A DNA stretch of 64,000 bases, taken from Variovorax terrae (GTDB lineage: Bacteria; Pseudomonadota; Gammaproteobacteria; Burkholderiales; Burkholderiaceae_C). Each line of letters opens with the position of its first letter. Position 1 is the first letter of the stretch. The notes beneath the pieces are model-generated. The model was not told the DNA's origin. It saw only the letters and a program-made list of their open reading frames with translations, and searched no databases. Below, piece by piece: positions 19,772 through 36,202 of the stretch. A program made the translations under genes and the position numbers. The stretch is from the NCBI RefSeq assembly GCF_022809125.1, contig NZ_JALGBI010000004.1, positions 1 to 64,000 on the forward strand, read 5' to 3'.

Positions 19772-19779
19772 CGGGCTGA

Positions 19780-19808: not shown

Positions 19809-19818
19809 CAATGGCTCT

Positions 19819-19894: not shown

Positions 19895-20066
19895 AATTCC
19901 CGTCTCAAGCGATTCCACTGAAGCCCAAGGTCCTTGCAAATCAAGGACTTAGCCTGAAAAGGCGGCTCAGATGGTCTCGCCAAATCCCACAAAGTCCTGC
20001 ATTTGCGTGTACCCACGCTGGTACCCCAGACTGTGTTTCATCAACAGTCATTTTCTGGGTACCACC

Positions 20067-20320: not shown

Positions 20321-20324
20321 CAAA

Positions 20325-21190
20325 ATTCTTCTGCATGTCATTCGTTCGGGCTTTCTGCATCAAGTCCGGCGGCACCTTCCAGATTCCATCCGCGATGCGC
20401 TCCACGATGCCGGCGCGGCGCAGCGCTTCGAGCCGGCGCACGTGCGCATCGACAGCGGACTGTGGGTCGCGGTCGTTGGCGTGCTTTAGTTGCGCCAGAT
20501 GGTCCACGGTCTTGTAGAGGCCGTCTTGCGCGATGGCAGCGATGTGACGGTCAACCGGCCTTTCCTGGCCTGAGGGCCTCGCCTCAATGATGCCGTGTAT
20601 GGGCAGCTCTGCGAGGTCGGCGCCGACGGGGAGCTTGAGGTAGTGCGCCCGTCCGTCGATGCCATCGACCACCAGGTAGCCACGGTCGTGTAGCTCGTCG
20701 GCCAGGCCCTTGCCCGCAATCCGACAGATGACGGGGGAGGTCGGCCGCTCATCGACCACGCATTCCCGCCGCTGGCCCTTGAGCGCACGGCGCACGGTTT
20801 CCAGCGCATCCAAGCGCTGGCCGATGGCGTCGAGTGTGGCCGCCATCCCAGGCTGGAACTTCCAGCGGTTCGTGTTCGTCCTCTCGGCTAGGCCCATGCC
20901 TTCGAGCCGCTGCAGCCGCGCCCGCAGCGCGTTCTGACGCTGTCGGTCTTGCGGGTTGCCCGTCAGGTCGATGCCATCGAGATCGGCTTGCCGGATCAGC
21001 GCCCGATCCAAGCCGGTGAGCCGCTGCTGGTCGACCTCCCGCAGCAGGCTCTGACGGAACTCCGCCTCGGTGCGTGGCCCCAGCCATTTGGTGGCGATAT
21101 CGCTTGCGCGCAGCCGCATGCCGTGGGCTATGTAGTCGGGGGCGATCACAAGATCTTCCCGGCCACTGGCAGGTCCGCCCGTTTGTGTTT
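20325..21190 (-). pseudogene. Relaxase (DUF3363 / VirD2-like) C-terminal fragment
   Basis: The leftward frame reads EDLVIAPDYIAHGMRLRASDIATKWLGPRTEAEF, then FRQSLLREVDQQRLTGLDRALIRQADL and CRIAGKGLADELHDRGYLVVDGIDGRAHY. These are features of the DUF3363 region of mobilisation relaxases found in ICEs and broad-host plasmids. The N-terminal nickase domain is absent. The C-terminus is cut at about DLMQKARTNDMQK, where the sequence becomes antisense integrase. It is therefore a debris fragment truncated at both ends, although the surviving part has no internal stop. Confidence 0.7.
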
Positions 21191-21911
21191 GCTGCGAAGC
21201 GGGAAGCGAGTTGCATGTCATTTCTCCTAGTGAAGTTGGCTGTTGAAGAAACCCCACCGGATTCCTAGATTCAGAGCCCTCTTCGGACTTCCTGTGGGGT
21301 CGGCGCAAAGACCTGGGCCGGCCTCGTTGCCACCGTCTTTCCTGAGTTCATCGCCCGCGACGAAAGAAGACCGTGGACGGGGGCCGTCAAGGAGATAAGC
21401 GCCGGGGTGGGGCGGCCCGCAGCGCAGCGAGGACACGGCCCGGCGCGCCTTGACGGCACACGGCCGCGGGCTACAGTCGCGAGAAAGGCGATGAATTCGG
21501 GAAAGACGGCTTGACGGGCAATGGCTGTGGTTGGCGCAGACACCACGCAAGCGCAGCGCGCAGCTCCGCCAGGCGCGAAGGCCGATCAGGTGCAGCCTGG
21601 TCGGCGGACTTGCAGGGGTGCCAAACGAAGAGCGGCGGGGAGGGGCTCACCAGCCCTTCCCCCGGAGGGCAAGCGTAGCGCGCAGGACCCGAAGGGGCCG
21701 CAGGCGTCAGGGATCAAAGCCGGATGGGCCGCGATTCGGCACGAAGCGCGGGGTGCAGCCCGAGAGCCCGCCGGCGAGACGCCGGGACGCTCAATGGCCT
21801 TGATCGCAGATACGGCTAAAGTGAGCCAATCTGTTGAGTGCGACTCGGGCGGCCGATGGCTCAGAATGCTGGTTCAACGGAGTCGTATCCGTCCATTCTG
21901 CTGAGGAGTCC
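21191..21911. other. Conjugative-element debris without a clear gene
   Basis: About 720 nt of very GC-rich sequence between the relaxase fragment and the first island cargo gene. Open frames exist on both strands but have skewed Arg/Pro/Gly composition and no recognisable domain. Short G/C-rich inverted stretches are frequent. I recall similar non-coding sequence near relaxase genes of Tn4371-like elements, which I could not verify here. No ribosome site plus plausible start was found until the GTG at the right end. Confidence 0.45.
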
Positions 21912-23543: not shown

Positions 23544-23774
23544 CGCCGACGGCCACTTGGCTGTTGGCTTATCCGGACATGAGCTCATAGAGGTGCGATC
23601 ATTCGCTAGACGAGAGACGCCCTTGCCCTTCGGAGACGTCACTATGAGAGTCGCGAAAGACCTCCACAGCGGCTTCTCAAATGACCGCGTCCCCTTTGAG
23701 CGTGTAGGCTTGCGTAGTCCGAGCTCGAACAGCGAGTCGTCGGAATTTTTTGGACCAACCATGGAGGAATCCCT
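23544..23774 (+). other. Gap with a possible 73-codon ORF
   Basis: An open frame at 23557-23778 begins at TTG, contains GDVTMRVAKDLHSGFSNDRV, and ends overlapping the next gene's GTG (GTGA). No ribosome site precedes it and the composition is ordinary. It could be a small coupled gene or just leader sequence; I cannot decide between them. Confidence 0.25.
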
Positions 23775-24461
23775 GTGACGTCGACCGATCGTTTTGAAGC
23801 GTTGGTGGAGAACGGAAGGCGTACCATCCAGCGCCTGGCTTCGCATGATCCGGGTTACGAAGAGAGCCTACACACTGGGGCGGCGCCCGACGCTCTGAGG
23901 TCCCTTGTTCAAACCGCGTTCGTCCAGCTTGGCGGCGCCCTGGATGCTTTGGTCGGCGAGACCGCGCTTCGTTGCGGATTGTCGCAGGCGGCCTCAGGCT
24001 CCCGCTTCTCTCTACCTCGCAATGATTCGAATCAAGACCATCGGTCGATCTTGGAGGATTCGTTACCTGATTTGTCAAGCACTCTTCCAGAGATCGCGAC
24101 CGAGATGGTGCAACTCCTAGGTGTGCTGGACAGTGACAGATGGCTTGCACCTCTAGGGGCACTCGTTTACGACGTGGAGGCGTTGCAACTGCGGCGCGCG
24201 GTTGGGAGTGTCTCTTTTGCATCTACTGCTGAGGCCGGCTTGCAGATGACGCTGAGGGGCGAGGACGGCGGGTCGATTCCGATGCTTGCCCCGCTACGGA
24301 TCGACGGGGCTCCAGGCACCGGAGCGCAAGACGGAAGGGCGTTCTACCTTGTCGTCATGCCTGGCGGCCGCGAAGTCGTGTCCTTCCTTGATCGATGTGT
24401 TCGCGGGACTGAGCAAATTGGCCTGGGGTTCCGGCGCGTGCTCAGCACCCATGAACGCTAA
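23775..24461 (+). CDS. Hypothetical island protein, possibly HEPN-like
   Basis: 228 residues beginning at GTG with GGAGG nine bases upstream. The N-terminal half (FEALVENGRRTIQRLASHD to LVGETALRCG) looks all-helical. A segment DRWLAPLGALVYDVEALQLRRAV faintly resembles the WLxxLxxLxNxxKHxxL pattern of some HEPN-like proteins, but the Lys-His is not kept. The C-terminal half looks beta-rich (SFASTAEAGLQMTLRG). It follows the nuclease-like gene in the same direction and may be its partner. No family is recognised with confidence. Confidence 0.5.
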   Translation: MTSTDRFEALVENGRRTIQRLASHDPGYEESLHTGAAPDALRSLVQTAFVQLGGALDALVGETALRCGLSQAASGSRFSLPRNDSNQDHRSILEDSLPDLSSTLPEIATEMVQLLGVLDSDRWLAPLGALVYDVEALQLRRAVGSVSFASTAEAGLQMTLRGEDGGSIPMLAPLRIDGAPGTGAQDGRAFYLVVMPGGREVVSFLDRCVRGTEQIGLGFRRVLSTHER

Positions 24462-24483
24462 GAAGCCGTTTATCACATTTTTG

Positions 24484-24521
24484 CTCATAAATATAGTTTA
24501 GCGTTAAACTATATTTATGAG
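24484..24521 (+). promoter_or_regulatory. Perfect 38-bp palindrome over promoter and start codon
   Basis: Two 17-bp arms, CTCATAAATATAGTTTA and its exact complement TAAACTATATTTATGAG, flank the 4-nt centre GCGT. The right arm contains the ATG of the next gene. A -10-like TATAGT (24492-24497) with a weak -35 (TTTATC) 17 nt upstream lies in the left half, putting the transcript start near the centre. No Shine-Dalgarno sequence exists. This is best explained as an autoregulatory operator for the MerR-like protein. It could also fold into an RNA hairpin hiding the start. Confidence 0.85.
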
Positions 24522-24996
24522 CTCGCGCGACGACACGATTGCAGATTCCTTTTCGGCTACGCGGGCCGCTGCCCTTGCCGGCATTTCGCGCGCGATGCTG
24601 AATTACCTCTGCCGGGAGAAAGTCGTCGTTCCAAGCATTTTGCCCTCGCGGGGGCACGGCTCGCCGCGGGCATACTCATTCGGCGATGTCGTCGCGCTAC
24701 GCTTGGTGGCCAAGCTGTCCGCGGCGGGCGTGTCGGTGCTGCGTTTGAAGAAGGCAATGCAACGCTTGCGTAAGCTCCATCCCGAGATCACACTGACTTC
24801 GCTGCCCGGCAGCCACGTCGTCACCGATGGGCGGGACCTGTACATCAGGCGCAAGGGCGAGACGCTGGAGCGTGCGATGGACGGCCAGTTCGCGTTCGCA
24901 TTTGTCGTTGAACTCGCGCCGATTCGCAATGAAGTGGCCGACGGTATTTTGAAGTCGCAGAAGGCTGGCGTCGGACGAGCGCGCAAAGTCGCGTAA
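24517..24996 (+). CDS. MerR-like HTH transcriptional regulator
   Basis: 159 residues. A winged-helix DNA-binding region at about 13-85 has MerR features: SATRAAALAGISRAMLNYLCREKVV (helix-turn-helix), a wing RGHGSPRAYSFGDVVALRLV with the conserved R-x-Y-S-F-D/G-D-V block, and an antiparallel helix AGVSVLRLKKAMQRL. The C-terminal ~75 residues are not a known effector domain. Its start codon is inside a perfect palindrome, implying self-repression. It leads an operon with a small protein, a metalloprotease and a dCTP-deaminase homologue and is likely their switch. Confidence 0.8.
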   Translation: MSSRDDTIADSFSATRAAALAGISRAMLNYLCREKVVVPSILPSRGHGSPRAYSFGDVVALRLVAKLSAAGVSVLRLKKAMQRLRKLHPEITLTSLPGSHVVTDGRDLYIRRKGETLERAMDGQFAFAFVVELAPIRNEVADGILKSQKAGVGRARKVA

Positions 24997-25037
24997 CGAG
25001 CGACCCTCGATGGTCGAGAAAGGGCAAGGGACGAAAC

Positions 25038-25352
25038 ATGCTTGCGGCAACTTCCAGGCGCGACAGTCCGATTGGGCTGTTTCAGGCGGTGCTGAGAGCT
25101 CTTGAAGCAGCGCCCGAAGTGGGCGAGCCTCTTCGTCAGCATACGCTGACGGTGCTGCGCGCCGCATGTGAGATCGCGGCGGACCCGTCGACCATCGGTG
25201 CACACGCACCTCCCGAAGCAATTGAACTTGCACTATGTCTTCGGGGCAACGCACTGTTGAGGCAACGGCTAGAGGAACTCCGAAGCTTGGATTCCATACC
25301 TCCGGCCGTCGCTCGTCAACTGCTGAACGCGTTCGCTCCAATTGCTGCTTAG
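25038..25352 (+). CDS. Small helical hypothetical protein
   Basis: 104 residues, ATG with a weak AAGGGA ribosome site. Almost entirely predicted helix, rich in Leu and Ala (GLFQAVLRALEAAPEVGEPLRQHTLTVLRAACEIAAD, then LRQRLEELRSLDSIPPAVARQLLNAF). No signal peptide, membrane segment or recognised motif. It lies 41 nt after the MerR-like gene and overlaps the metalloprotease gene by 11 nt, so it is coupled to it and may be an adaptor or inhibitor. Function not recognised. Confidence 0.6.
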   Translation: MLAATSRRDSPIGLFQAVLRALEAAPEVGEPLRQHTLTVLRAACEIAADPSTIGAHAPPEAIELALCLRGNALLRQRLEELRSLDSIPPAVARQLLNAFAPIAA

Positions 25353-26448
25353 ATCAAACTTTCGCCTCTTGCTTCTGCAGCTGGACAGGCTTGCGGAGAC
25401 GCCGTACTTTTCTCTCGAGCTCGACAACTACATCAGTGACTTGCGGAGGGTCACCCGTGAGCTGATCAGTCGGATCAGCGCGACACCGGCAACCCTGAAC
25501 GAAGAGGTTGCCAGGCTGGCCCTCGAGAACATATGGGAGCTGACCCAATTCTTGACCGGCAGCACGACGAAGCAGGTGCCGTACGAGGTCGTGTACGCGA
25601 TCGAGAGGGCGGCCCGCGGCTGGACGTCCAGCCCCTTGCTGGTGACCACTGCCATCGTGCAGGAGTCGAGCTTCTTCTTTCAGGGTGGCCAGGAATCGTT
25701 CTTTCGAGCGATGGAAGCTGAGCTTGGCATCGTCATCAAGGGTCGTCCGGTTCAAATCGCGTTGCCCTATATCTACAGACACAAACCGCTCTTTTGCATA
25801 CCGCTGTTCCACGAACTGGGGCACTTCGTGGACAGCGCTCGCGACATTGTCGTGGCATCGCTTCTGCAGTTCCCACCGGAGTCTGGGCCCGCACTGCCGG
25901 GACTCACGCCGCCGGCCGATGTTTCCTCGCTCAGTGCGGGCGAAAAGCGAATCTGGGATGGAGTCGTCAAGCGACACCGGCAGGAGTACTTCGCGGACTT
26001 GTTTTCTGCGGCCTATGTAGGCAAGGCAACTAAGGGATTCCTGGAGCAGTTCTGCCCTGACGCGGAAGTGGCCCACACACACCCCAGTTCAAGCGCTCGG
26101 TTTGCGCTGCTGGATGATTTCTATGAGGGGCGGTCGAACCCCATCATCGACATGTTCCAGAAGACGCTTGCTGCGCGCGGGCTGCCCAAGCTTGAAAAGA
26201 TGTTCGACACGGTAGACCTGGAACCGTCGACGGGCGACGTGCGACCCTTTCAGGTTGAGTCGGATCGGCAGTTGTTCGGCCTTTTCGAATCCGGCTGGGA
26301 CTTCCTGATGACGCAGTGGCAGAGCGGGTCGAGTCACTGGGCGCATATCGCGCCGGATGATCGCGTCGACGTTGCGAACGACTTGATAGAGAAGGCGATT
26401 CGCAATCGAATGATACGGGAGGCGTGGAATGCGGCTGTTGACTCATGA
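25342..26448 (+). CDS. HELGH zinc metalloprotease-like protein
   Basis: 368 residues from a TTG. The N-terminal ~100 residues are helical. The catalytic signature is PLFHELGHFVDSARDIV (HExxH at 157-161) with a candidate third ligand Glu in RQEYFADLFSAAYVG (213-219) and a later THPSSSARFALLDD block, the pattern of gluzincin-type cytosolic peptidases. No signal peptide. An in-frame stop just upstream rules out a longer form, so the TTG, overlapping the previous gene by 11 nt, is the only sensible start. It overlaps the next gene by 20 nt. Target unknown; a stress or infection effector protease is a reasonable guess. Confidence 0.7.
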   Translation: MLLRSNFRLLLLQLDRLAETPYFSLELDNYISDLRRVTRELISRISATPATLNEEVARLALENIWELTQFLTGSTTKQVPYEVVYAIERAARGWTSSPLLVTTAIVQESSFFFQGGQESFFRAMEAELGIVIKGRPVQIALPYIYRHKPLFCIPLFHELGHFVDSARDIVVASLLQFPPESGPALPGLTPPADVSSLSAGEKRIWDGVVKRHRQEYFADLFSAAYVGKATKGFLEQFCPDAEVAHTHPSSSARFALLDDFYEGRSNPIIDMFQKTLAARGLPKLEKMFDTVDLEPSTGDVRPFQVESDRQLFGLFESGWDFLMTQWQSGSSHWAHIAPDDRVDVANDLIEKAIRNRMIREAWNAAVDS

Positions 26449-27124
26449 AGAGCTCGTGGCGTCTTTGTCCAGCACCGACGCCGAAAGCATCCACCTTGAT
26501 CCGCTGTTGCGCCCAGACCAGGTGGGCCAAGTCACAGTGGACCTGCGTCTGGGGTACGACTTCCTGGTGTCGGTTCTGACTCGAAGTCCGGCGGTCGAGC
26601 TGCGACCGACACCTGAATCGAAGTTTCGGGGTATCCAGACCTATTTTCAAGAGACCCGCCGAACGCTGGGCGAGCGGTTCGTTCTCTACCCCCACCAGCT
26701 GGTGCTCGCCACGACAGTTGAATACCTGTCGCTGCCGTCGAACATTTACACCGACATTTCGGTGCGGAGCAGTTACGCCCGCCTCGGGATTGGCGTGAGC
26801 ACTTCGCTGCAGCCAGGATGGAGGGGGTGCGTACCTCTTGAGCTTTTCAATCATGGCAACACGCCTGTTGAACTGGTTGTGGGCAGTTGCATCTGCCAAG
26901 CAAAGTTCTTCGCGATCCAGAACCAGGTGAGCTATGTCCGGGAGGGAGCTACCAGAAAGTATTTTGGGAGCATTAGGCCGGTAGTCTCGCGCGCCGAGCG
27001 CGACAAGGATTTGGCAGTGCTTGCTCGGCTTGCGGACACCTTCTACCAAGACGTGGGGGATGGTGGGTTCACCCCGCCCCCGTCAGCGGAAGTCATTCCC
27101 GAGGACCAACCGCCGGCGCCGTGA
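26429..27124 (+). CDS. dCTP deaminase homologue (Dcd/dUTPase fold)
   Basis: 231 residues. It aligns along its length with Dcd: VTVDLRLGYDF, the substrate loop VRSSYARLGIGVSTS (Arg113, Ser114, Ser115, Arg118), QPGWRGCVPLELFNHG with catalytic Glu138, then QAKFFAIQ and a KYFGS stretch matching the C-terminal KYRNQQG of housekeeping Dcd. It should convert dCTP to dUTP. It has a longer middle insert and tail than ordinary Dcd and sits in an operon with a regulator and a protease inside a mobile island, which fits nucleotide-depleting defence enzymes rather than housekeeping. Activity is inferred from conserved residues. Confidence 0.8.
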   Translation: MRLLTHEELVASLSSTDAESIHLDPLLRPDQVGQVTVDLRLGYDFLVSVLTRSPAVELRPTPESKFRGIQTYFQETRRTLGERFVLYPHQLVLATTVEYLSLPSNIYTDISVRSSYARLGIGVSTSLQPGWRGCVPLELFNHGNTPVELVVGSCICQAKFFAIQNQVSYVREGATRKYFGSIRPVVSRAERDKDLAVLARLADTFYQDVGDGGFTPPPSAEVIPEDQPPAP

Positions 27125-27126
27125 GA

Positions 27127-28023
27127 TCAGCTTGCAAGCCAGCCCATCGTGAGGACTTGGTGCGTGTTACAGAAGCCGTCAAGCGCGATGACCCGTTTCT
27201 CGCCGCGTAGGTCGATCAACGAGTCGTTGCCGCCCACCACAGGTCCTCTGCGCTTCCAGGACGTGTTCCGCTGAATCAATGAATAGGCCTGGCTTGCGGT
27301 GACGCCGGGAAACATCTGCCTGAAGCCAAGTGACGTGATGAAGTGGTGAATGCCAGTGCCATCCGCGGTCGGGCCGATGTCGGCATGATGGGGATGTGCA
27401 CTAATCAGGCCGAAGGTCGCCTGAGCTGGGTCGCGATCCTCCACAAACCGCCAGAAAGTCGAGGTGAGCGTGTTGCCGAAGCGGGCTTTGAGAGTCTCAA
27501 CACTCTTGAACGATTGGGAAAAATCCTTTGACTCTGTGCTGAACTGCGGACCAAAAAAGAGCAGTCGTCCTGCGCCGAAATTGGCTTCTGCCTCGATGGT
27601 CTCATGGCATGTCGGATTCAGAGTGACTTCGTTGTCGCCCAGCAGAAACTCGGAATGCCAGGGCACGAAGCTGTGGGCAACTTCGTGCGCCTCGATCCAC
27701 CGGTGCTTCAACGGGGGAACCTCGCTGTCGATGAAAATCTTTCGGTCGTCCGGCAACCAGAGGCCGCTTAGCTTGGCCTTCTTCACCACGTCCAGGATCA
27801 GCAGCGGATCCTCCGCCAGTCGCTTGCCGGCGACCTTGATTCGGTGGGCAAATTCCGCCAATGGACCAATGTCCGCAGACGAATAGTATTTGCGATCGAG
27901 GCGAAGCAGCTCCCGGACCATTCGCAGGTCCAGGGGCGGCTCGGGCCGTCCGAGGTCACGCAAGATTTTGTCGACCAACTGGTCGATTTCCTTTTGTTCA
28001 CGCTGACCAACGAGTTCCCGCAA
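27127..28023 (-). CDS. ImmA/IrrE-family metallopeptidase
   Basis: 298 residues. The zinc motif is RWIEAHEVAHSFVPWH (HEVAH at 113-117) with the downstream ExEAN-type ligand ETIEAEANFGAGRLLF, the hallmark of ImmA/IrrE (COG2856) proteases that cleave Xre-type repressors. The C-terminal half is a less conserved sensor-like region. The gene lies 8 nt after an XRE gene in the same direction, as is usual for this pair. It ends only 2 nt from the converging dCTP-deaminase gene, with no terminator between. Confidence 0.85.
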   Translation of the reverse strand: MRELVGQREQKEIDQLVDKILRDLGRPEPPLDLRMVRELLRLDRKYYSSADIGPLAEFAHRIKVAGKRLAEDPLLILDVVKKAKLSGLWLPDDRKIFIDSEVPPLKHRWIEAHEVAHSFVPWHSEFLLGDNEVTLNPTCHETIEAEANFGAGRLLFFGPQFSTESKDFSQSFKSVETLKARFGNTLTSTFWRFVEDRDPAQATFGLISAHPHHADIGPTADGTGIHHFITSLGFRQMFPGVTASQAYSLIQRNTSWKRRGPVVGGNDSLIDLRGEKRVIALDGFCNTHQVLTMGWLAS

Positions 28024-28031
28024 GTGATCTC

Positions 28032-28502
28032 CTAAGGTTTTTCTCGCAAAAAGCGAATAAAGCTGCGCAACATGTTCTGCTCTTCGTCTGTGAGGATGGA
28101 CATGTCGTCAGAGTGCGCGGCAAACTTCAGTGCCTTGGTCCGAAACACGTCATCGTTGGACACAGCTGCGCCAGCCAACTTCATCAGCTCAGTCAGCGGC
28201 AGATCAAAAAAGCGCGCGATGTTGGAGATCGTTCTAGGCCGAGCGTGATAGGCAGGATCGTGCTCTATCTGCTGAATTTCGGCAGCATCAACGGACAGTT
28301 TCTCCGCAAGTTGTTCGACGGTCAGCTTCTTGGAGCGACGCGCCAGTCGTACGAGCATGCCAAAGGCCACGGTCAATGGTGGTTCGGTGGCCTCAGTCTT
28401 CGAGGCAGAGAAAGGGGCTGGTCCAATGACGAAATCATCATCCAGCGTTTCCCGAATCATTCGCGCGTACCACTGCCGGTCCGGGCGATTTCTTGTGGTC
28501 AT
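28032..28502 (-). CDS. XRE-family HTH regulator
   Basis: 156 residues. The HTH_3 region spans roughly residues 45-110: VAFGMLVRLARRSKKLTVEQLAEKLSVDAAEIQQIEHD, then PRTISNIARFFDLPLTELMKLAG. An N-terminal extension of about 40 residues is not recognised; the C-terminal tail is acidic and helical. It overlaps the GNAT gene upstream by 4 nt (ATGA) and precedes the ImmA/IrrE protease gene. It is probably a repressor or antitoxin-like factor cut by that protease. Confidence 0.85.
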   Translation of the reverse strand: MTTRNRPDRQWYARMIRETLDDDFVIGPAPFSASKTEATEPPLTVAFGMLVRLARRSKKLTVEQLAEKLSVDAAEIQQIEHDPAYHARPRTISNIARFFDLPLTELMKLAGAAVSNDDVFRTKALKFAAHSDDMSILTDEEQNMLRSFIRFLREKP

Positions 28503-29143
28503 AGAGTACCTCCAGTCTTGGAAGTCCGAAGCGCCAGCAGTTCCGCTGCGCGCTGAGGTGTCAGTTCGAAATAGAGTAGCCCGCTGTAAGCAGGGTCCGG
28601 ACCGAGGCAGTCCATGCCCAACTTGTCACGGTAGAGGGTTTCCGCGCCGGGCAGTGAATGCAGGCCCACGCGACCGTCGAAGCCTTCGTCCTCGCTGCGG
28701 ATGATGGCTTCGGTAACTAGAACGATGCCCACGCCACCATACAAGGGGTTGGGCGTGAACCTGGGACGGTTCCATGGTGCAGTGGACACAAGGTCGACAT
28801 ACAGCATGTGCTGGTTGAATTGACTCGGAAGTCGGCAGCGATAGACCAGGTTGATGAACATCAAACCTTGAGTCATGCCACTGCATCTCAGGGCATATGA
28901 AGCCCATTGCAGCTGGCCGGCGCGGCTTTGGAACTTGGCTGGCCATTCCCAGTGGGCGTCTTCGAGGTTCCACTGGCTCACAGTTTGCCTGTTGTACTGG
29001 CCGGCGAGTTTCAGTTCATTGAGCTTCGCCTGCATGGGCGGAAGCCAATGATCCTGAAAGCACTTCACGTCCGCCGCTTGGATGCGGTCGGAAAGTTCTG
29101 CAGGCTCAAAAAGCTGAGATTGCCGGTTCCAAAGCTGGGTCAT
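28499..29143 (-). CDS. GNAT-type acetyltransferase, candidate toxin
   Basis: 214 residues from the ATG giving MTQLWNRQSQLFEP. A helical N-terminal region of about 80 residues is followed by a GNAT-like core: YVDLVSTAPWNRPRFT, then GGVGIVLVTEAIIRSEDEGFDGRVGLHSLPGAETLYRDKLGM and YFELTPQRAAELL, with the GVG acetyl-CoA loop. It starts 4 nt after a ribbon-helix-helix gene, the arrangement of RHH-GNAT toxin-antitoxin pairs, whose toxins acetylate aminoacyl-tRNAs. It is larger than classical TacT/AtaT toxins, so the target could differ. Confidence 0.7.
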   Translation of the reverse strand: MTQLWNRQSQLFEPAELSDRIQAADVKCFQDHWLPPMQAKLNELKLAGQYNRQTVSQWNLEDAHWEWPAKFQSRAGQLQWASYALRCSGMTQGLMFINLVYRCRLPSQFNQHMLYVDLVSTAPWNRPRFTPNPLYGGVGIVLVTEAIIRSEDEGFDGRVGLHSLPGAETLYRDKLGMDCLGPDPAYSGLLYFELTPQRAAELLALRTSKTGGTL

Positions 29144-29147
29144 AGGT

Positions 29148-29360
29148 TCACAGGAGCATGAGCTCCGCCTTTTCTTTGCCGTTCTCAAAAAACAGTTTTT
29201 CGCCACGTTGTTGGCGCACATCCACGGTCTGATAAAGCCGCAGCGCCTGGCGCAGCACGGCTGTTTTTGACAAAGACCGCTCCGTCGATAGCGCATCGAG
29301 GACTTCCATCTCGGCGTCGGATAGGACGAGCGTGAGGGTTTTCTTCGCGGATGTGGTCAT
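29148..29360 (-). CDS. Ribbon-helix-helix antitoxin-like protein
   Basis: 70 residues. TLTLVLSDAEMEVLDALSTERSLSKTAVLRQALRLY is a CopG/RHH DNA-binding fold (strand then two helices), followed by a charged tail ending EKAELMLL that could cover the partner enzyme. The ATG has AGGAG at good distance; an in-frame ATG 24 nt upstream is less likely. A sigma70 promoter (TTGACA-17-CATAAT) lies just upstream. First gene of the RHH-GNAT-XRE-ImmA operon and probably its autorepressor. Confidence 0.8.
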   Translation of the reverse strand: MTTSAKKTLTLVLSDAEMEVLDALSTERSLSKTAVLRQALRLYQTVDVRQQRGEKLFFENGKEKAELMLL

Positions 29361-29386
29361 GTGGTGCTCCTGGTTGCGGGGCACCC

Positions 29387-29415
29387 ATTATGTTAGGAAA
29401 TCCATATTTTGTCAA
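29387..29415 (-). promoter_or_regulatory. Leftward sigma70 promoter of the RHH-GNAT operon
   Basis: Read on the minus strand: TTGACA, a 17-nt spacer, then CATAAT, close to consensus, with the start of the RHH gene about 27 nt further on. It lies in an AT-rich 186-nt divergent region shared with the ubiquitin-like operon. Confidence 0.75.
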
Positions 29416-29451
29416 CATTCAGCCCACTGAAAATAACCTGTATCTGGCCAT

Positions 29452-29480
29452 TTGACATTCATTTTATACTCATTTAATAT
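29452..29480 (+). promoter_or_regulatory. Rightward sigma70 promoter of the ubiquitin-like operon
   Basis: TTGACA, a 17-nt spacer, and TAATAT (4 of 6 consensus). Transcription would start near 29487, leaving an 84-nt leader before the triple-Ubl gene. The two divergent promoters are only about 36 nt apart (-35 to -35), so an RHH or XRE protein bound between them could affect both operons. Confidence 0.7.
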
Positions 29481-29570
29481 GCAGTCACTGATTAGTTTCA
29501 ACTTAGAAAATAATCACGGCTCAGCAGGTAGCTACACCCTGTATCCCATGATGTGAAATGGATTTGGAAA

Positions 29571-30281
29571 ATGAACGCAGTAGTGAATGACAAGAAGTCC
29601 GACCACGACGACGAGCGTGGCGCGCGCGGTCGCATCGTCCTGCTCGACGAGAACTTTCAGAGCCGTGAGGCGACCATCGACGACATCAAGGTCACCGGCA
29701 GGCAGATCGCTGAAGCCGCGGGGTACAACTCCACAGACGAGGTCATCGTCCTGCAACAGCTGGCGAGTGGCGCACTGGAGGAGATCCGGCCGGAAGAACT
29801 GGTCAACCTGGCGCCGGCCGGTGCAGAGCGCTTCTTCGTGATGGTGGGTGACGCCACCTACCGCTTCATCCTGGATGGTCTGAAGTTCGAGTGGGTGCGA
29901 CCCAGCGTCACTGCCGACACCCTGCGCAGGCTGGTCGGCAAGGACGACAGCTTCGACGTTGTGCAGGAGCTGGAGAGCGCGCCTGACCGGACGCTGGATG
30001 ACGACGACGTGATCGATCTCACGGGCGGCGGGACCGAGCGCTTCAAGACGAAGCATGGTGCGAAGCTGGTGACCGTTTACTACGGGGAGGTCGAGCACAA
30101 GTTGCCCAAGGGGGTCTACGCCACCGAACAACTGCGCAATGAGTTCAAGGTGGAAGAGGGTTACGTGCTGGCCTTGATCGCCGCGGACGGCTCTTTCGAC
30201 GAACTGAAGCCGGGCCAGAAGCTGCGCCTGAAAAACGGCATGAAGTTCGTGAGCTACGCGCCCTGCGGGCAGTCGTCATGA
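29571..30281 (+). CDS. Multi-ubiquitin protein with three Ubl repeats
   Basis: 236 residues. Three tandem beta-grasp-like repeats can be read: about 20-92 (GRIVLLDENF to GAERFFVM), 95-161 (TYRFILDGLKFEW to GTERFKTK) and 164-230 (KLVTVYYGEVEHKLPKG to NGMKFVSYA). Each ends in a similar (G/N)xxxRF/KF block. The tail is APCGQSS, so cleavage after Gly233 by the linked JAMM protease would expose a C-terminal glycine for E1 activation. This is the multi-ubiquitin family found only in operons with E1, E2 and JAB. The ATG at 29571 is preferred over an in-frame GTG 18 nt upstream. It overlaps the E2 gene by 4 nt. Confidence 0.85.
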   Translation: MNAVVNDKKSDHDDERGARGRIVLLDENFQSREATIDDIKVTGRQIAEAAGYNSTDEVIVLQQLASGALEEIRPEELVNLAPAGAERFFVMVGDATYRFILDGLKFEWVRPSVTADTLRRLVGKDDSFDVVQELESAPDRTLDDDDVIDLTGGGTERFKTKHGAKLVTVYYGEVEHKLPKGVYATEQLRNEFKVEEGYVLALIAADGSFDELKPGQKLRLKNGMKFVSYAPCGQSS

Positions 30282-30607
30282 GCAGCGCGCAGTTCAACGC
30301 CTTGAAGGCGATCTACCCCGCGGCCGAATGCTGGTCGGAGGGCGGCCGCGAGGTGGCCTTCATCCCCGGCGTCACGCTCCAGGCCGCAGGCGGGCCGGTG
30401 CAAGTGAACCTACTTCTGCATCCCCACGCCAAGGACAACTACGACACGCGCTTGTTTGTCGATCGCAAGATCGCCGAGCCCAAGGGCTTGAACTGGGCCG
30501 TTCACACTGTCTGCGGGGAAACCTGGTGGGCATGCTCGTGGCAGGGCGTTAAGGCCCACCTGCCCTGGGTGCAGATCCTGGCCAACCACCTGCGGGCATT
30601 TCTATGA
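30278..30607 (+). CDS. Prokaryotic E2-like (UBC-fold) conjugating protein
   Basis: 109 residues, small for an E2. It has a beta-rich N-terminal half (GREVAFIPGVTLQ, QVNLLLHPH) and a C-terminal helical end. Candidate catalytic cysteines are Cys79 and Cys86 in HTVCGETWWACSWQG, accompanied by several histidines (48, 50, 76, 94, 104). Histidines near the cysteine replace the classical HPN in the bacterial E2 families tied to multi-ubiquitin proteins. It would receive the activated Ubl from E1 and pass it to a target. It overlaps both neighbours by 4 nt, so all four genes are one coupled unit. Confidence 0.75.
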   Translation: MSSAQFNALKAIYPAAECWSEGGREVAFIPGVTLQAAGGPVQVNLLLHPHAKDNYDTRLFVDRKIAEPKGLNWAVHTVCGETWWACSWQGVKAHLPWVQILANHLRAFL

Positions 30608-31122
30608 AGACGCACATCAAGATCGCAGGCCCGCTCTTGAGCGCCATCCGTGCCGACCTGCACCGCAGGCACCCATTCGCTTTCGAGCGGGTCGGTTTCC
30701 TGACCGCCGGCGCACGCTGGACCGGTGACGGCGACCTCGTGTTGCTGTGTCGGGACTACCAGCCCGTCGTCGACGAAGACTACGAGCGCAGCAGCAGCGT
30801 GGGCGCCCGGATCGGATCGAATGCCATGCGCAAAGTCCTCCAGGCGGCCTACCAGCACAAGTCCGCGATCCTGCACATCCACACCCATGGCGGGCGGGGC
30901 CGGCCGGAGTTTTCCGCGGTCGACCTGAACAGCGCCCGGGACTTCGTGCCGGGCTTCTTCAATGCCCTGCCGCAGATGCCGCACGGCATCGTGGTCCTGA
31001 GCAACGACTCGGCACGCTGTCTGCTGTGGACCGGGCCCAAGGACCGACCCCGCCATGTGGACGGGTTCCAGCAAGTCGGCGCACCCCTGATCAAGTTTGG
31101 AGCAGCACATGAGCCAGCATGA
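30604..31122 (+). CDS. JAMM/MPN+ metalloprotease (Ubl-processing)
   Basis: 172 residues, a stand-alone JAB domain. The zinc signature is HIHTHGGRGRPEFSAVD (His93, His95, Asp107, with Ser104), and the general-base glutamate is likely Glu28 in AFERVGFL. Related bacterial JAMM proteins remove residues after the Ubl C-terminal glycine and release Ubl from targets. Given the QSS extension on the triple-Ubl protein, maturation is the obvious first job. It overlaps the E2 gene by 4 nt and the E1 gene by 14 nt. Confidence 0.88.
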   Translation: MKTHIKIAGPLLSAIRADLHRRHPFAFERVGFLTAGARWTGDGDLVLLCRDYQPVVDEDYERSSSVGARIGSNAMRKVLQAAYQHKSAILHIHTHGGRGRPEFSAVDLNSARDFVPGFFNALPQMPHGIVVLSNDSARCLLWTGPKDRPRHVDGFQQVGAPLIKFGAAHEPA

Positions 31123-32011
31123 CCGGCAGAGTTTTCTCGGGCCTACTAGCGAGCAGGACCTTGCGAGCGTCACCGTGGGCATCCTGGGCCTGGGCGGCGG
31201 CGGCTCGCACGTCGTGCAGCAGTTGGCGCACCTGGGCGTGGGCGGCTACGTCATCGCCGATCTCGACATCATCGACGAGACCAACCTGAACCGCCTGGTC
31301 GGCGGCACGCGCGCTGACATCGACGCGAAGGAACTCAAGATCCGGATCGCCGAGCGCGCCATCCGCCGCGTGCTGCCGAACGCCCGCATCTCCGCGCATG
31401 CAAAGCCCTGGCAGGAGGTCGCCGGCGAGCTGAAGCACTGCGACGTGCTCATCGGCGGCCTGGACTCCGTGATCGCGAAGGACGAGGCCGATCGCTTCGG
31501 CAAGCGCTTCCTGATCCCCTACATCGACATGGGAATGGACGTGCACAAGCTTGGCGACCGCTTCCTGATCGCGGGCCAGGTGGTGCTGACCCTGCCGGGT
31601 GGGCCGTGCCTGCGCTGCATGGGCGTGGTCACCGAGGCCGCGCTAGCGACCGAGGCCCGTCGCTATGGCGCGGCCGGCGGCAAGCCTCAGGTCGTCTGGC
31701 CGAACGGCGTGCTGGCCTCCACCGCCGTGGGCCTGTTCACCCAGTTGGTGTGCCCCTGGCACGACAAGCCGATGGCGGCTGCTTACCTGGAGTATGACGG
31801 CAACAAGCACACGGTGTCGCCCAGCATGCGCCTGGCGGCGATCGCCAACCGACCTTGCAGCCACTACCTGGCCCACGAGGCCGGGGAGCCGCGCTTCGAT
31901 ATCCGCACGCCGCCCGCACCCGTGAAGCCACAAGTGGAGACATCCGTCCTGGCCGATGAGGTGGCGCCTAGCTGGTGGCGCTCAGTCGTAGCATTCTTCA
32001 CGGGCCGCTGA
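31109..32011 (+). CDS. E1-like ThiF-family Ubl-activating enzyme
   Basis: 300 residues. The adenylation fold is clear: VTVGILGLGGGGSHVVQQLAHLGVG (nucleotide loop), DLDIIDETNLNRLVGG with the conserved Asp and Asn-x-x-Arg, and CDVLIGGLDSVIAKDEAD. A CxxC (167/170) with Cys215 and Cys250 may bind zinc, or one of them may be the thioester cysteine. It adenylates the Ubl C-terminal glycine and loads it for transfer to E2. The ATG after MEQH is chosen (TTG 12 nt upstream is possible). The C-terminus ends with a Trp/Phe-rich stretch (WWRSVVAFF). Confidence 0.88.
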   Translation: MSQHDRQSFLGPTSEQDLASVTVGILGLGGGGSHVVQQLAHLGVGGYVIADLDIIDETNLNRLVGGTRADIDAKELKIRIAERAIRRVLPNARISAHAKPWQEVAGELKHCDVLIGGLDSVIAKDEADRFGKRFLIPYIDMGMDVHKLGDRFLIAGQVVLTLPGGPCLRCMGVVTEAALATEARRYGAAGGKPQVVWPNGVLASTAVGLFTQLVCPWHDKPMAAAYLEYDGNKHTVSPSMRLAAIANRPCSHYLAHEAGEPRFDIRTPPAPVKPQVETSVLADEVAPSWWRSVVAFFTGR

Positions 32012-32060
32012 CGAGGCTGACGGTGCGGCCCCGGTATTCCCCAATTCGGCTCACGGGACC

Positions 32061-32399
32061 TTGCGGAGCCTGATCGCCTTGCCGTGGAAACCTGGTGCAC
32101 CGGATGTGAGTGCCGCCTTTGAGAATGCCGTTCGATCGCGCTCGCCGTCTATCCTCCGCGCGTTCATCCGCGAGTTTCCCGAGCAGATGGATCGCCGCTG
32201 TGGTGGTCTCACGGTCCTGCACCGTGCCGTCTGCGTCGAGTATTCGGCGGACAACATCGCCGCGCTAATCGAAGCCGGCGCGAATCCCCACGCTCTCAGC
32301 GACGATGGAGAAACGCCCTTGCAATACGCCATCCGGGAAGGATGGGAAACGAGCGCGAAGGCCCTTGAGCGCTCGATGCAGGAGAACCCTTTAGGGTAG
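32061..32399 (+). CDS. Ankyrin-repeat-like small protein
   Basis: 112 residues from a TTG (a GTG at 32106 is an alternative; neither has a strong ribosome site). GLTVLHRAVCVEYSADNIAALIEAGANPHALSDDGETPLQYAI matches the ankyrin pattern (TxLHxA, LLxxGAdxn, GxTPLxxA), with a partial preceding repeat. It follows the E1 gene by 49 nt in the same direction, across a GGGCCGC / GCGGCCC hairpin. It might be a partner or target of the conjugation system, or an unrelated passenger. The start is uncertain. Confidence 0.55.
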   Translation: MRSLIALPWKPGAPDVSAAFENAVRSRSPSILRAFIREFPEQMDRRCGGLTVLHRAVCVEYSADNIAALIEAGANPHALSDDGETPLQYAIREGWETSAKALERSMQENPLG

Positions 32400-32770
32400 C
32401 CGTTGATGCACGCTGGTCAGACGCCCAAGGAGCGCGGGGCCGGTACTCAGCACAGTCTCCGCGATGAGTCGGCTACGGCGCTGTCAGGAGCGGCGCGGCC
32501 GGTTCATCGCTGCGTGGTCCGCCGGACGCTTACCGAGCATTGATCAGGGTCCCCTTTTGATCAAACCTTGGGTGGGCACCATCGTCGCTCCTTCCGGATC
32601 GATGCGCTGAGCACGTTCGTGTGAATCTATTGCTCATACTGCGGTTCATGGACTCAGTGGTGGCTCAGCTGTATCAGCACGGTCATCCTCTGGAGGCTAC
32701 AGGCCCATTGGGATCGCAATGGCGCGACGAACTGTAAGGGTCACACCAAAGTCCTCTTTCTCGCTTTTGA
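32400..32770. other. Non-coding right boundary of the island
   Basis: 371 nt with no supported gene on either strand. A TGATCA inverted pair flanks a GGGTCCCCTTT core near 32535-32558. No copy of the tRNA-Phe 3' end was found here, so the right attachment site is missing or diverged. The sequence separates the rightward island genes from the leftward catabolic operon and probably contains the old island junction. Confidence 0.4.
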
Positions 32771-34300
32771 CTACAGTTCGACGCGCGAATCCCAGGGCGA
32801 TTCCCCGCCCCAGTTCACGCATACACTTTGGCGACGCATGTAGCCCTTCCAGGCATCCGAGCCCGCGGTGCGACCTCCACCGGTTTCTTTCTCGCCCCCG
32901 AATGCCGCTCCGATGTCCGCGCCGGTAGTGCCCATGTTCACCTTGGCAATGCCGCAATCGCTGCCCTGGGCCGACAGGAAGAGTTCGATGTTGCCCAGAT
33001 TCGTGCTGTGGATCCCCGATGCCAGGCCCTGCGGCACACCGTTGTGGATAGCGATGGCTTCCTCCAGCGTGTCATAGGGCATGACGTACACGATCGGTGC
33101 GAACGTCTCGTGCTGAACGCAGCGCCATTCCGGTTTCACGTCGGTCACCAGCGTGGGCTCGACGTAGTAGCCCGGCCGATCCATCCGCTTGCCGCCATAG
33201 GCGATCTTGCCGCCTTGGCTGACAACGTCCAGCATCGCTTGCTCGAAGTGACCAACAGCAGCTCGGTCGACCAGAGGACCGACGACGGCGTCAGGCTCGC
33301 GCGGGTCGCCCACCTTGATCTGAGCGAACGACCTCTTCAGCAGATCCAAAAGCTGGTCCACCACCGAGCGGTGAACGATGACGCGTCGGGTGCTCGTGCA
33401 ACGCTGGCCAGTCGTTCCGACGGCGCCGAAAGTGATGCTGCGGGCAGCCAGTTTGAGATCGGCCGTCTCATCGACGATGCATCCATTGTTGCCGGAACAT
33501 TCGAGCATGTAGCGCCGGCCCAACTGGCTACCGACGATGTTGGCGACCTTGCGACCCACCGCGCTGGAGCCGGTGAACGAAACAAGGGCCACGCGGGCAT
33601 CGGCCAGCAGCTTCTCGGCCACCTGGTTGTCGTCAGGGATGAGAAGTGTGAACACGCCTTCGCACTTCATCTCCTTCATCGCAATGTTGCACAGGTACTG
33701 GATCGCCAGTGCGGTCAGAGGCACCTTCGGGCTAGGTTTCCAGACAACGGTGTTGCCGCCGATGGCTGCCAGGAAGCCGTTCTGGGCCCACACTGCCGCT
33801 GGAAAGTTGTAAGCAGAGATGATGGCCGCCACACCCAGTGGAAGCCATTGGTCGTACATGCGGTGCTTGTAGCGCTGCGATTGCTGGGTGAAGCCGTAGA
33901 GCATGCGAGATTGGCCGGCCGCCAGGGTAGCCATATCGACAACCTCGCGCACTTCCCCCTTCGCTTCCATCAACGACTTACCAGTGTCCAATGACACGAT
34001 GGCGGCCAGACTGTCGAGGTGTCGTTCCACTAATGCGCCGATCCGGGCGACCAGCTCTCCGCGGCGAGGAGCGGGCGTCATGCGCCAGCGCCGCTGTGTG
34101 GCGACCGCGACCGACATTACCTCCTCGAAGTCTTGCGCCACGGCGCCGGTGATCTTGGCCGTCACTGTTTCGTCGGAAGGATTGACCGCGTCAAACGTCG
34201 AACGTCCTTGTACCGGACTCCAGCCGCCCGGGCCAGTACAGGCACCGGCGTTCACGGCTTGGATGCCGAATTCCTCGAGGACCTTTTTTTGATCGAACAT
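32771..34300 (-). CDS. NAD(P)-dependent aldehyde dehydrogenase
   Basis: 509 residues from MFDQKKVLEEFGIQA. ALDH features in order: the NAD site PLGVAAIISAYNFPAAVWAQ, SFTGSSAVGRKVA, the Glu motif LECSGNNGCIVDETAD, the catalytic Cys in GTTGQRCTSTRRVIVH, and HETFAPIVYVMPYDTLEEA. The sequence resembles the class containing alpha-aminoadipic semialdehyde (ALDH7-like) enzymes. It should oxidise an aldehyde from the upstream pathway to its acid. Last gene of the long leftward catabolic operon, 2 nt after the cupin gene. Substrate not determinable from sequence. Confidence 0.9.
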   Translation of the reverse strand: MFDQKKVLEEFGIQAVNAGACTGPGGWSPVQGRSTFDAVNPSDETVTAKITGAVAQDFEEVMSVAVATQRRWRMTPAPRRGELVARIGALVERHLDSLAAIVSLDTGKSLMEAKGEVREVVDMATLAAGQSRMLYGFTQQSQRYKHRMYDQWLPLGVAAIISAYNFPAAVWAQNGFLAAIGGNTVVWKPSPKVPLTALAIQYLCNIAMKEMKCEGVFTLLIPDDNQVAEKLLADARVALVSFTGSSAVGRKVANIVGSQLGRRYMLECSGNNGCIVDETADLKLAARSITFGAVGTTGQRCTSTRRVIVHRSVVDQLLDLLKRSFAQIKVGDPREPDAVVGPLVDRAAVGHFEQAMLDVVSQGGKIAYGGKRMDRPGYYVEPTLVTDVKPEWRCVQHETFAPIVYVMPYDTLEEAIAIHNGVPQGLASGIHSTNLGNIELFLSAQGSDCGIAKVNMGTTGADIGAAFGGEKETGGGRTAGSDAWKGYMRRQSVCVNWGGESPWDSRVEL

Positions 34301-34302
34301 GA

Positions 34303-34746
34303 TTACTGCCCAATGGATGTTTGCGGTTTGGAAAGAAAGCCGCCGATGCTCTCGTCGGTATGGAACACCGGCTTTTCGTGGTAGTGAGGGCCGTCGTAGA
34401 TTTCGATGAGTACACTGCGCTCGTGTGCCAGCGTGGGACCGTGAGGATGGTCCTTGGGATTCATGTAGAACGTCCCGGGTGTCAGCGTCAATTGACTGTC
34501 GGTGTACTCGTACCTGCCCTCGAGGCAGTACATGAACTGGTTCGACGCATGCGAGTGCTTCACCGGAATGCGGCCGCCTTTCTCGTATTCGAGGATGGCG
34601 ATGCTTGCCCCGGTGTCGGCGTTCTTCCACAGGAAGTACTGACGAAACCCGTAATCGGGAAAATCGATCCATTTCTCCGGATCTAGGTCCTGCTGGCGAA
34701 TCAGCAGTTCCAGTGTCTTCATGCTGGCTTCGGTGGGTGAGTTCAT
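34303..34746 (-). CDS. Cupin-domain protein
   Basis: 147 residues, a single cupin barrel. Metal-binding motif 1 is GGRIPVKHSHASNQFMYCLEGRYEY (His-x-His) and motif 2 is PGTFYMNPKDHPHGP. It starts MNSPTEASMKTLELL (a second in-frame ATG gives MKTLELL). It overlaps the RraA-like gene by 4 nt. It could be a small dioxygenase, an isomerase or a ligand-binding cupin in the ring-cleavage pathway; the exact job is not recognised. Confidence 0.75.
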   Translation of the reverse strand: MNSPTEASMKTLELLIRQQDLDPEKWIDFPDYGFRQYFLWKNADTGASIAILEYEKGGRIPVKHSHASNQFMYCLEGRYEYTDSQLTLTPGTFYMNPKDHPHGPTLAHERSVLIEIYDGPHYHEKPVFHTDESIGGFLSKPQTSIGQ

Positions 34747-35483
34747 TTGACGTTCTCCATGTGTATCGGCCGACCGGCTGCGACCCAGCCGTCGTATTCC
34801 TTGCGACTTTCCGGAGTCGCCGGAAATAGTCCGAAGATCGATCGACCTTGCGCAATCTGCAGTTCTGCGAAGGCCTCGTACTCCACCGCGTCCACAGCTT
34901 CGTCGGCGATAGGTTCGACGAGCGCCCAGGGAATGACGACTACGCCTTCACCATCACCAAGGACTACGTCGTCGGGGTAGACGGCGACTCCGGCGCAACC
35001 AATCGGGCCATTCAATTCAACTGGATGCAGCGCGATGGGTGTGGCAGGCGGCGCCGACTGGCGCTGATAAGCCGGCAAGCCGATGTGCCGGATAGACGGT
35101 GTGTCGCGATAGCCACCATCAGTCACCACGCCAGCAACGCCGCGCTGGCGTAGGCGAGCCACCATGAGGTCGCCTGCCGCCGCTGCCCTTGAGCAGTTCC
35201 CCGTATCGATTACCAGGACATGGCCAGTCGGGCATTCCTCAATCGCACGTCGATGCAGGTTGTCCTCGCGCCCATAGTTCGCCATGGTGTCGATGTCCTC
35301 CCGCGCGGGCATGAAGCGCAGCGTGTAGGCTGGCCCGACCATGGGACCCTGGTCCATCGATAGTGGCTGCACTCCCAGTAGGTAGACGTTGCGAAAACCT
35401 CGCCTCAGGAGCGCATTAGCCACATTGGCGCTACCGACCTTCGCTAGCTTGGCGCGCGTGGCCGGAGATAGCTCGAATGTCAT
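34743..35483 (-). CDS. RraA-family (HMG/CHA aldolase-like) protein
   Basis: 246 residues. Characteristic RraA/class II pyruvate aldolase text: ATRAKLAKVGSANVANALLRRGFRN, GHVLVIDTGNCSRAAAAGDLMVARLRQRGVAGVVTDGGYRDT (the GxDGxxRD catalytic-type motif) and DDVVLGDGEGVVVIPW. In catabolic operons this fold cleaves 4-hydroxy-4-methyl- or 4-carboxy-2-oxoadipate-type intermediates to pyruvate. The metal-site and Arg-Asp residues are kept, so an aldolase or decarboxylase is more likely than a pure RNase E regulator. It overlaps its neighbours by 4 nt on both sides. Confidence 0.82.
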   Translation of the reverse strand: MTFELSPATRAKLAKVGSANVANALLRRGFRNVYLLGVQPLSMDQGPMVGPAYTLRFMPAREDIDTMANYGREDNLHRRAIEECPTGHVLVIDTGNCSRAAAAGDLMVARLRQRGVAGVVTDGGYRDTPSIRHIGLPAYQRQSAPPATPIALHPVELNGPIGCAGVAVYPDDVVLGDGEGVVVIPWALVEPIADEAVDAVEYEAFAELQIAQGRSIFGLFPATPESRKEYDGWVAAGRPIHMENVK

Positions 35484-36202
35484 TCAACCACCTCCTTCAG
35501 CGCCGGCAAGATTCGTATATCCAGCGTTCCCAGCCCTTCAACGGTGGCGGACAGCGCGTCGCCGGCTTGGACGGGACCTACGCCTTCGGGCGTCCCGGTA
35601 AAGATCAAGTCACCAGGCTCCAGTGTGAAGTAGCGTGAGAGGGTCGCGATAATCTCCCGCGTGCTCCAGATCAGCATGGAGAGATCACTTGCCTGGCGCC
35701 GTTGGCCATTGACCGATAGTGCAATTTGGCCCCGCGTCAACTCCCTCGTTTCGCTGATAGGGAAAATGGGGCCGATCGGCGCACAGCGCTCAAAAGTCTT
35801 GCCGATCTCCCACGGCTTCCCTCCCTGCCGCATCGCCTGCTGCAGGTCACGCCGCGTCATGTCGATGCCGATCGCGTAGCCCCATATGTGGGAAACCGCT
35901 GTGTCGACCTCGATGTTGCGGCCTGCTTTACCTATGGCTACGACCAGTTCCACCTCGTGATGGAGATTCTTTGTCGCATCCGGATAGGGTAGATCCACCG
36001 GACCGGCTGCAGCCCATACAACCGTGTCGGCGGGTTTGCAGAAGAAGAACGGAGGTTCTTGACGTGGATCCACCCCCATTTCGATGGCATGATCCGCGTA
36101 GTTGCGGCCGACGCAGTAGACGCGCCGGACTGGGAACAGGCCCTTGGCTCCCGCAATTGGGACTGCCGTTAGAGGTGGGGGGGGAACGACGTACTCGCTC
36201 AT
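35480..36202 (-). CDS. Fumarylacetoacetate hydrolase-family enzyme
   Basis: 240 residues. The FAH signature reads VRRVYCVGRNYADHAIEMG, PFFFCKPADTVV, a metal-binding HHEVELVVAIGKAG (Glu pair), GYAIGIDMTRRDLQQ and GDLIFTGTPEGVGPV. The closest remembered relatives are fumarylpyruvate hydrolases of gentisate-type pathways (NagK-like), which hydrolyse a 2,4-dioxo acid to fumarate or another acid plus pyruvate. It is coupled by 4-nt overlaps to RidA upstream and RraA downstream. The exact substrate is inferred. Confidence 0.87.
   Translation of the reverse strand: MSEYVVPPPPLTAVPIAGAKGLFPVRRVYCVGRNYADHAIEMGVDPRQEPPFFFCKPADTVVWAAAGPVDLPYPDATKNLHHEVELVVAIGKAGRNIEVDTAVSHIWGYAIGIDMTRRDLQQAMRQGGKPWEIGKTFERCAPIGPIFPISETRELTRGQIALSVNGQRRQASDLSMLIWSTREIIATLSRYFTLEPGDLIFTGTPEGVGPVQAGDALSATVEGLGTLDIRILPALKEVVE

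Follow-up and report, generated by a model that had tools for sequence, protein, structure and literature searches.

A Bub-type ubiquitin-like conjugation operon in Variovorax terrae and the RHH-GNAT-CapH-CapP module that faces it

To which of the known bacterial ubiquitin-like systems does a four-gene operon of Variovorax terrae belong, and what would keep it in check? The operon lies at 29571..32011, on the forward strand, of a 64,000-nucleotide stretch of contig NZ_JALGBI010000004.1 (hereafter the window, i.e. the whole stretch of DNA analysed), and encodes a protein with several ubiquitin-like units (polyUbl, each unit a Ubl), an E2-like protein, a JAMM metallopeptidase and an E1-like adenylating enzyme. 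It faces four divergent genes, for RHH, GNAT, CapH-like and CapP-like proteins, which the first-pass annotation of this DNA had omitted and which turned out to be its most telling neighbours. Judged by the sequences of its E1, E2 and Ubl, the operon is of the Bub type, and we consider it probable that this conjugation system is kept silent and would be switched on by DNA damage. The features concerned are the following.

27127..28023, reverse strand: CapP-like protease (ImmA/IrrE family) with an HExxH motif (HEVAH); PADLOC capP, E 8.5e-11
28032..28502, reverse strand: CapH-like helix-turn-helix (HTH) repressor with an N-terminal extension; PADLOC capH, E 2.1e-5, and HTH_VI, 1.1e-7
28499..29143, reverse strand: GNAT-type acetyltransferase, second controller gene; family-level homology
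29148..29360, reverse strand: RHH protein (CopG-type), first controller gene; RHH_1, E 3.4e-4
29387..29415, reverse strand: sigma70-like promoter of the divergent controller operon, TTGACA-17-CATAAT; pattern match alone
29452..29480, forward strand: sigma70-like promoter of the Bub operon, TTGACA-17-TAATAT; pattern match alone
29529..29534, no strand assigned: single TAGCTA hexamer, sole copy in the intergenic region of the window; motif count
29571..30281, forward strand: polyUbl protein (BubA-like), three beta-grasp units and a Gly233-Gln-Ser-Ser tail; Multi_ubiq, structure matches and tail conservation
30278..30607, forward strand: E2-like protein (BubB-like) without conserved Cys and with an invariant Ser87; residue counts, BubB fold and profile match
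30604..31122, forward strand: JAMM metallopeptidase (BubC-like) with E28, His-Thr-His at 93-95, S104 and D107; conserved residues
31109..32011, forward strand: E1-like adenylating enzyme (BubD-like); ThiF and BubCD matches

Relatives were gathered by a JAMM-profile scan over one genome per species (84,980 species), which yielded 55 loci spanning, by record title, Alpha-, Beta- and Gammaproteobacteria, Acidobacteria, Bacteroidota and others; the residue counts given below refer to 56 sequences, these 55 loci plus the window. The four genes announced by the first-pass annotation are real and in place, and their order (Ubl, E2-like, JAMM, E1-like, on one strand) is kept in 55/55 related loci when ordered by 3' ends, with JAMM and E1 joined in one open reading frame (ORF) in L068 and L070. 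No JAMM or polyUbl relatives were detected among the viral contigs of the collections searched, nor any JAMM or GNAT match among phage records.

The triple beta-grasp repeat predicted for the first protein was borne out by Multi_ubiq (PF14452, E 1.9e-29) and by its structure model, which matched 9cd2_B (210 residues) and 9d5a (208) in the VIA comparison. Its Gly-x-Ser-Ser tail is strongly kept (G233 55/56, S235 54/56, S236 55/56). Ubl ORFs of 111 residues or fewer in 9/56 sequences make it probable that loci differ in how many Ubl units they have, some of these ORFs being perhaps cut or split genes. Solved structures of triple-Ubl proteins are 9d59, 9d5a, 9d5b, 8u38 (deposited as Ubl-BilA) and 9cd2. 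A triple Ubl without separate effector had been presented as a less studied form, a view that these structures and the class 6e operons of Iyer 2006 (PMC1779556) do not support.

Both flanking enzymes were also recognised as announced. In the JAMM protein the motif is intact, with E28, H93 and H95 in 56/56 sequences and S104 and D107 in 55/56. The E1-like enzyme matched ThiF (E 1.9e-23) and, as best solved structure, Citrobacter BubCD (E 2.1e-12). The profile searches that had been proposed as a check succeeded for Multi_ubiq and ThiF, and gave no Pfam match for the E2-like protein or for the JAMM protein, which taken alone had no meaningful PDB sequence match either. ThiF/MoeB-like matches of the E1, all far below curated cut-offs, are what a ThiS/MoaD-type sulfur-carrier or cofactor pathway could appeal to; the JAMM and UBC-like partners, the CapH/CapP neighbours and the absence of cofactor genes among the neighbours scanned speak for something else, and we give such a pathway hardly any credence. 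The only E1 cysteines kept at 55/56 are C167, C170 and C250, which together with H252 (54/56) look like a zinc site, and outside this zinc-type set no cysteine is universally conserved in the 56 sequences.

The E2-like protein was announced as an E2, and here the fold and the chemistry part ways: its UBC-like fold stood, with Citrobacter BubB as the best fold match of its model, placed there solely through a second-look alignment and hhalign, and a normal cysteine E2 did not. Position 87 is Ser in 56/56 sequences, Tyr55, Trp73 and Trp83 are invariant and His104 is found in 55/56, while position 86 is Met in 18/56, Pro in 14/56, Phe in 11/56 and Cys in 5/56, the window being among these five. 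The E2 of Bil systems has a conserved catalytic cysteine, and Cys86 of the window stands 10 residues after His76, at the canonical spacing of eukaryotic E2s; it could in principle be the catalytic residue of a thioester conjugation as in Bil or type II cyclic oligonucleotide-based antiphage signalling systems (CBASS), confined to the branch of the window, where 10 of the 13 relatives from the protein search share it. The gene order Ubl, E2, JAMM, E1 also agrees with what we take to be the Bil order. Yet position 86 becomes Ile in P0005, a relative with 83% identity, His76 is present in 35/56 sequences only, and a thioester route would have to pass through an E1 without any universally conserved free cysteine, all of which leaves this route quite improbable. 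The cysteine pattern of both proteins rather fits a thioester-free transfer. A 2026 work by Ye reportedly has Bub enzymes working via oxyesters.

A second group of proteins has an aligned serine. Nine E2 domains, from polyUbl operons adjoining the controller module that is treated further on, share an invariant QRWSRH, match Citrobacter BubB (PDB) at E 6e-30 and align with the E2 family of the window at E 7.8e-7 (probability 91.7%), with Ser87 of the window falling on the serine of Citrobacter BubB and of the QRWSRH set; both scanned members of this group match Prok-E2_E. TSG101 UEV comes next after BubB among the fold matches, and two solved polyUbl relatives are filaments by title, so the E2-like protein might instead be a catalytically dead UEV/RWD-like subunit, in an operon that mainly builds and recycles polyUbl assemblies through the action of E1 and JAMM on the Ubl tail. 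The class 6e E2-like domain was indeed deemed likely inactive, because its cysteine is missing, by Iyer 2006 (PMC1779556). The strongly constrained appearance of Ser87, Tyr55, Trp73, Trp83 and His104 argues against a dead protein, although it does not prove activity, and we hold this explanation to be unlikely. The JAMM-type Bub branch carries a cysteine-free E2 family unrecognised by the copies of Pfam, NCBIfam and PADLOC used.

Membership in canonical Bil and in type II CBASS was rejected, because the E2 cysteine is unconserved (kept in 5/56 only) and a CD-NTase is missing from the operon and from those neighbouring genes that were scanned. The kinship with Bil and Cap2 that had been proposed gives way to Bub, to which the solved structures matched (Citrobacter BubCD and BubB) are closer. 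Phage defence, the role named by the first-pass annotation, is not demonstrated for Bub operons according to PMC13373217.

What distinguishes the locus is the divergent module. GNAT homologues are rare, being found in 3/369 genomes of the class of the window and 3/398 of its phylum, and in 2/367 genomes of another class, both in a sample centred on G706 and in one of nearly the same genomes centred on G652 (all counts including the centre genomes). In the class sample, where 14/369 genomes have Multi_ubiq, a Ubl operon faces the GNAT module in 3/3 GNAT genomes; two of these are among the 14, and the third, G057, was reached only with a Ubl profile of our own making. Among the 26 GNAT loci that we looked at, drawn from six genomes, three viral contigs and 17 of 51 plasmid records, 19 share the order RHH-GNAT-CapH-CapP, namely those of the window, G205, G652, G1003 and 15 plasmids, and in 19/19 the RHH gene immediately precedes GNAT. 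These modules face polyUbl operons in 12 cases (counting L092, an unannotated locus in which Ubl alone was detected), CBASS operons in three and another E1/JAMM operon in one; opposite the remaining three lie hypothetical genes, an insertion sequence or nothing that was recognised. In addition, all 16 aligned CapH proteins of the 19 modules have the N-terminal extension, which is seen in 0/11 CapH/HTH proteins next to those polyUbl operons that lack RHH-GNAT (starts taken as the longest ORF or as annotated, the annotated start of L086 being one that would drop the extension). Our literature search, which covered papers containing at least three of four terms, did not include the main Bub and CapH/CapP papers and is no proof of absence, retrieved nothing joining GNAT with CapH/CapP or CBASS, and the four-gene controller is apparently undescribed.

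The other seven GNAT loci lack the full module. G057 has RHH-GNAT with a PD-Lambda-2_B-like protein, facing a Ubl-E2-JAMM-E1 operon; in G706, GNAT is followed by PD-Lambda-2_B and C; in three viral contigs, remote GNAT relatives are followed by an HExxH protein; and on two cyanobacterial plasmids neither CapH nor CapP accompanies GNAT. The remote relatives of G706 and of the viral contigs (L131, L132, L133 and L105) head a set of three genes that also encodes a peptidase-like protein and, in third place, a larger one. Here GNAT may stand in for the HigB-like protein of PD-lambda-2. The set is defined by PD-Lambda-2_B/C matches in G706, and by HExxH and gene order only in the viral contigs. In the window, neither the protease nor the HTH protein matched PD-Lambda-2 at E up to 0.1, the CapP-like protein stayed below the cut-off of Pfam Peptidase_M78 (E 0.0068), and RHH_1 was the sole match of the RHH protein at E up to 5, DUF1778 not being matched. 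Two module loci stand out in other ways: in G1003 (L134) the GNAT and CapP genes are shortened (4638-4991 and 3644-4138) while RHH and CapH look whole, and in L099, a Marinibacterium plasmid, the module adjoins a gene annotated as Cas9.

A putative operator may link the RHH protein to the promoters of the immune operons. Across 20 divergent regions (the 19 modules and G057), TAGCTA was observed 40 times against 2.07 expected under a first-order model, and at least two copies at steps of 11, 22 or 33 bases occur in 16/20. Upstream of the 55 Bub operons for which no RHH-GNAT was found, seven of which carry a CapH call, the hexamer is absent from the 16,606 bases examined (up to 250 per operon). 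In the 15 plasmid loci the 2,329 intergenic bases contain it 31 times and the other 198,281 bases 11 times, and tandem copies at the exact 11-base step 13 times versus none; the array precedes Bub and CBASS operons alike. The N-terminal strand of RHH follows TMT[LI]NL in 18 loci, all of which (18/18) have at least one TAGCTA, and the Asn is replaced by Val or Ile in the window (TLTLVL, one TAGCTA) and in L100 (MTLILS, none). Our reading is that RHH recognises the TAGCTA array and that the site has changed in the window.

Other hexamers were noted by eye. TGGCCA lies in the divergent region of the two loci with an Asn-less RHH strand, the window (29445-29450) and L100 (5617-5782), which makes two cases. 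Four Bub loci with CapH/CapP only (L046, L049, L050 and L052) have TCAAGC and GCTTGA where RHH-GNAT loci have TAGCTA, and the intergenic regions of L043 and L044 have TCAAGC only.

Could RHH-GNAT be an independent toxin-antitoxin pair, brought near CapH/CapP and Bub only through the clustering of defence genes? PMC2701414 describes GNAT-RHH pairs as mobile loci, similar to toxin-antitoxin systems and enriched on plasmids, and of the seven GNAT loci (out of 26) that miss the full module, four have a partner order like that of PD-lambda-2. Set against this are the fixed order in 19/26 loci, which spans alpha- and gammaproteobacterial plasmids and genomes of the class of the window, the CapH extension particular to the module, and a module-specific operator placed inside the immune promoter region; the independent pair is conceivable, and we doubt it.

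In the mechanism that we propose for the window, the JAMM protease would cut off Gln-Ser-Ser to expose Gly233, which the E1 would adenylate before the Ubl forms an oxyester with Ser87 of the E2-like protein instead of being loaded on a cysteine. The Ubl would then be put on targets, from which the JAMM protein could remove it again. The divergent module would hold expression down, RHH binding putative sites over the shared promoters and the CapH-like protein adding repression, until CapH is removed by the CapP-like protease, which single-stranded DNA would activate in the way that PMC13373217 reports for CapP. The GNAT protein, probably bound by RHH, could serve as a second sensor or guard toxin. 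We slightly favour the more specific proposal that RHH reads the 11-base-spaced TAGCTA array over Bub and CBASS promoters, that GNAT ties repression to an activity of a toxin-like or modifying kind, that the system would fire when the controller is lost as well as on DNA damage, and that the RHH strand and its operator changed together in the window and in L100. If true, a toxin-antitoxin-like pair would be built into the switch guarding bacterial ubiquitin-like and CBASS systems, and would show how immune operons stay silent and sense loss or damage.

Several observations weigh against this interpretation. The 55 loci were retrieved via JAMM, so that JAMM-free operons are unsampled. The E2-like structure model was built on 14 sequences, Foldseek alone gave it no match at E 0.001 or better, and a profile of window-type E2 sequences against PDB sequences retrieved neither BubB nor anything useful. 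C111 of the E1 is Cys in 50/56 sequences and could still matter. On the controller side, GNAT is assigned at the family level: the window protein alone had no Pfam match, the family profile retrieved no GNAT from PDB sequences, and Acetyltransf_10 was matched by 9/19 aligned family members (best E 2e-5). Several module loci are close relatives (L095/L097, L093/L094), so that their counts are not independent. Finally, the TAGCTA pair pattern of the window is not above chance and, with no tandem operator there, RHH control in the window rests on relatives.

The surroundings of the operon are those of a likely mobile island, and they include two further neighbouring genes.

25342..26448, forward strand: HExxH metallopeptidase-like neighbour, paired with the dCTP deaminase; homologues of 33-35% identity in L085, L095 and L097
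26429..27124, forward strand: dCTP deaminase-like neighbour; dCTP_deam, E 2.1e-30, and 52-53% identity to dcd in L085, L095 and L097

Homologues of this pair flank Bub operons on Agrobacterium, Shinella and Rhizobium plasmids (L085, L095 and L097, the last two being close relatives). The island had been proposed by the first-pass annotation, and its left side stood while the right border was not located. At the left edge stands tRNA-Phe (19819-19894); next comes an N-terminal integrase piece that meets, near 20325, a DUF3363 piece on the other strand, giving at 19819-20520 the series tRNA-Phe, truncated integrase and relaxase-like fragment. Contig C1 of the same genome holds a copy, 47 bases long, of the 3' end of this tRNA (2268062-2268108), and the left flank matches in 11/11 family members searched, partially in some. 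It is because of these tRNA, integrase/DUF3363, flank and copy data that we hold a mobile island to be likely. None of the 11 family members had 33000-36200 next to the tRNA-Phe flank, short matches elsewhere being all that they showed, and hence no empty site is shown; no tRNA-Phe attachment repeat was found inside the window, and the direct repeats in 19700-36000 come down to three short two-copy families. A short ankyrin-repeat ORF (32061-32399) comes next after the E1 gene, in the same direction.

Compared with known systems, the window shares with Bil (BilA-D) and with Cap2/Cap3 of type II CBASS the logic of Ubl or target, E2, JAMM and E1, and differs by an E2 without conserved cysteine and by an E1 nearest to BubCD among solved structures. 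The class 6e polyUbl operons of Iyer 2006 (PMC1779556), which we take to be the Bub class, have one to three Ubl units, a Cys-less E2/RWD-like domain, JAB and E1 as here, whereas their JAB is mostly fused to E1 and a metal-binding protein is also encoded. Closest is Bub itself (Citrobacter BubA, BubB and BubCD), with polyUbl, a BubB-like E2 with the aligned serine, JAMM, E1 and an adjoining controller of CapH/CapP type, CapW or CapH+CapP being present in 219/544 Bub operons (PMC13373217). By contrast with Citrobacter, the E2, JAMM and E1 of the window are separate genes, its E2 and JAMM match no Pfam model where the Citrobacter-like relatives tested match Prok-E2_E and Prok-JAB, and the ORF following E1 is the ankyrin-repeat one, not DUF6527. 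PD-lambda-2 (PMC9519451) resembles the GNAT relatives of G057 and G706 that precede PD-Lambda-2_B-like proteins, whereas the protease of the window is CapP-like, without PD-Lambda-2 match. GNAT-RHH type II toxin-antitoxin loci likewise have RHH directly before GNAT, yet the pair of the window is followed by CapH and CapP, faces immune operons and has RHH_1 instead of DUF1778. CapH+CapP controllers also place an HTH repressor and an HExxH protease of ImmA/IrrE type divergently from an immune operon; those of the window are preceded by RHH and GNAT, with an extended CapH and other repeats in the promoter region. The enzymes are ordinary members of a known pathway, and what looks new is mainly the controller.

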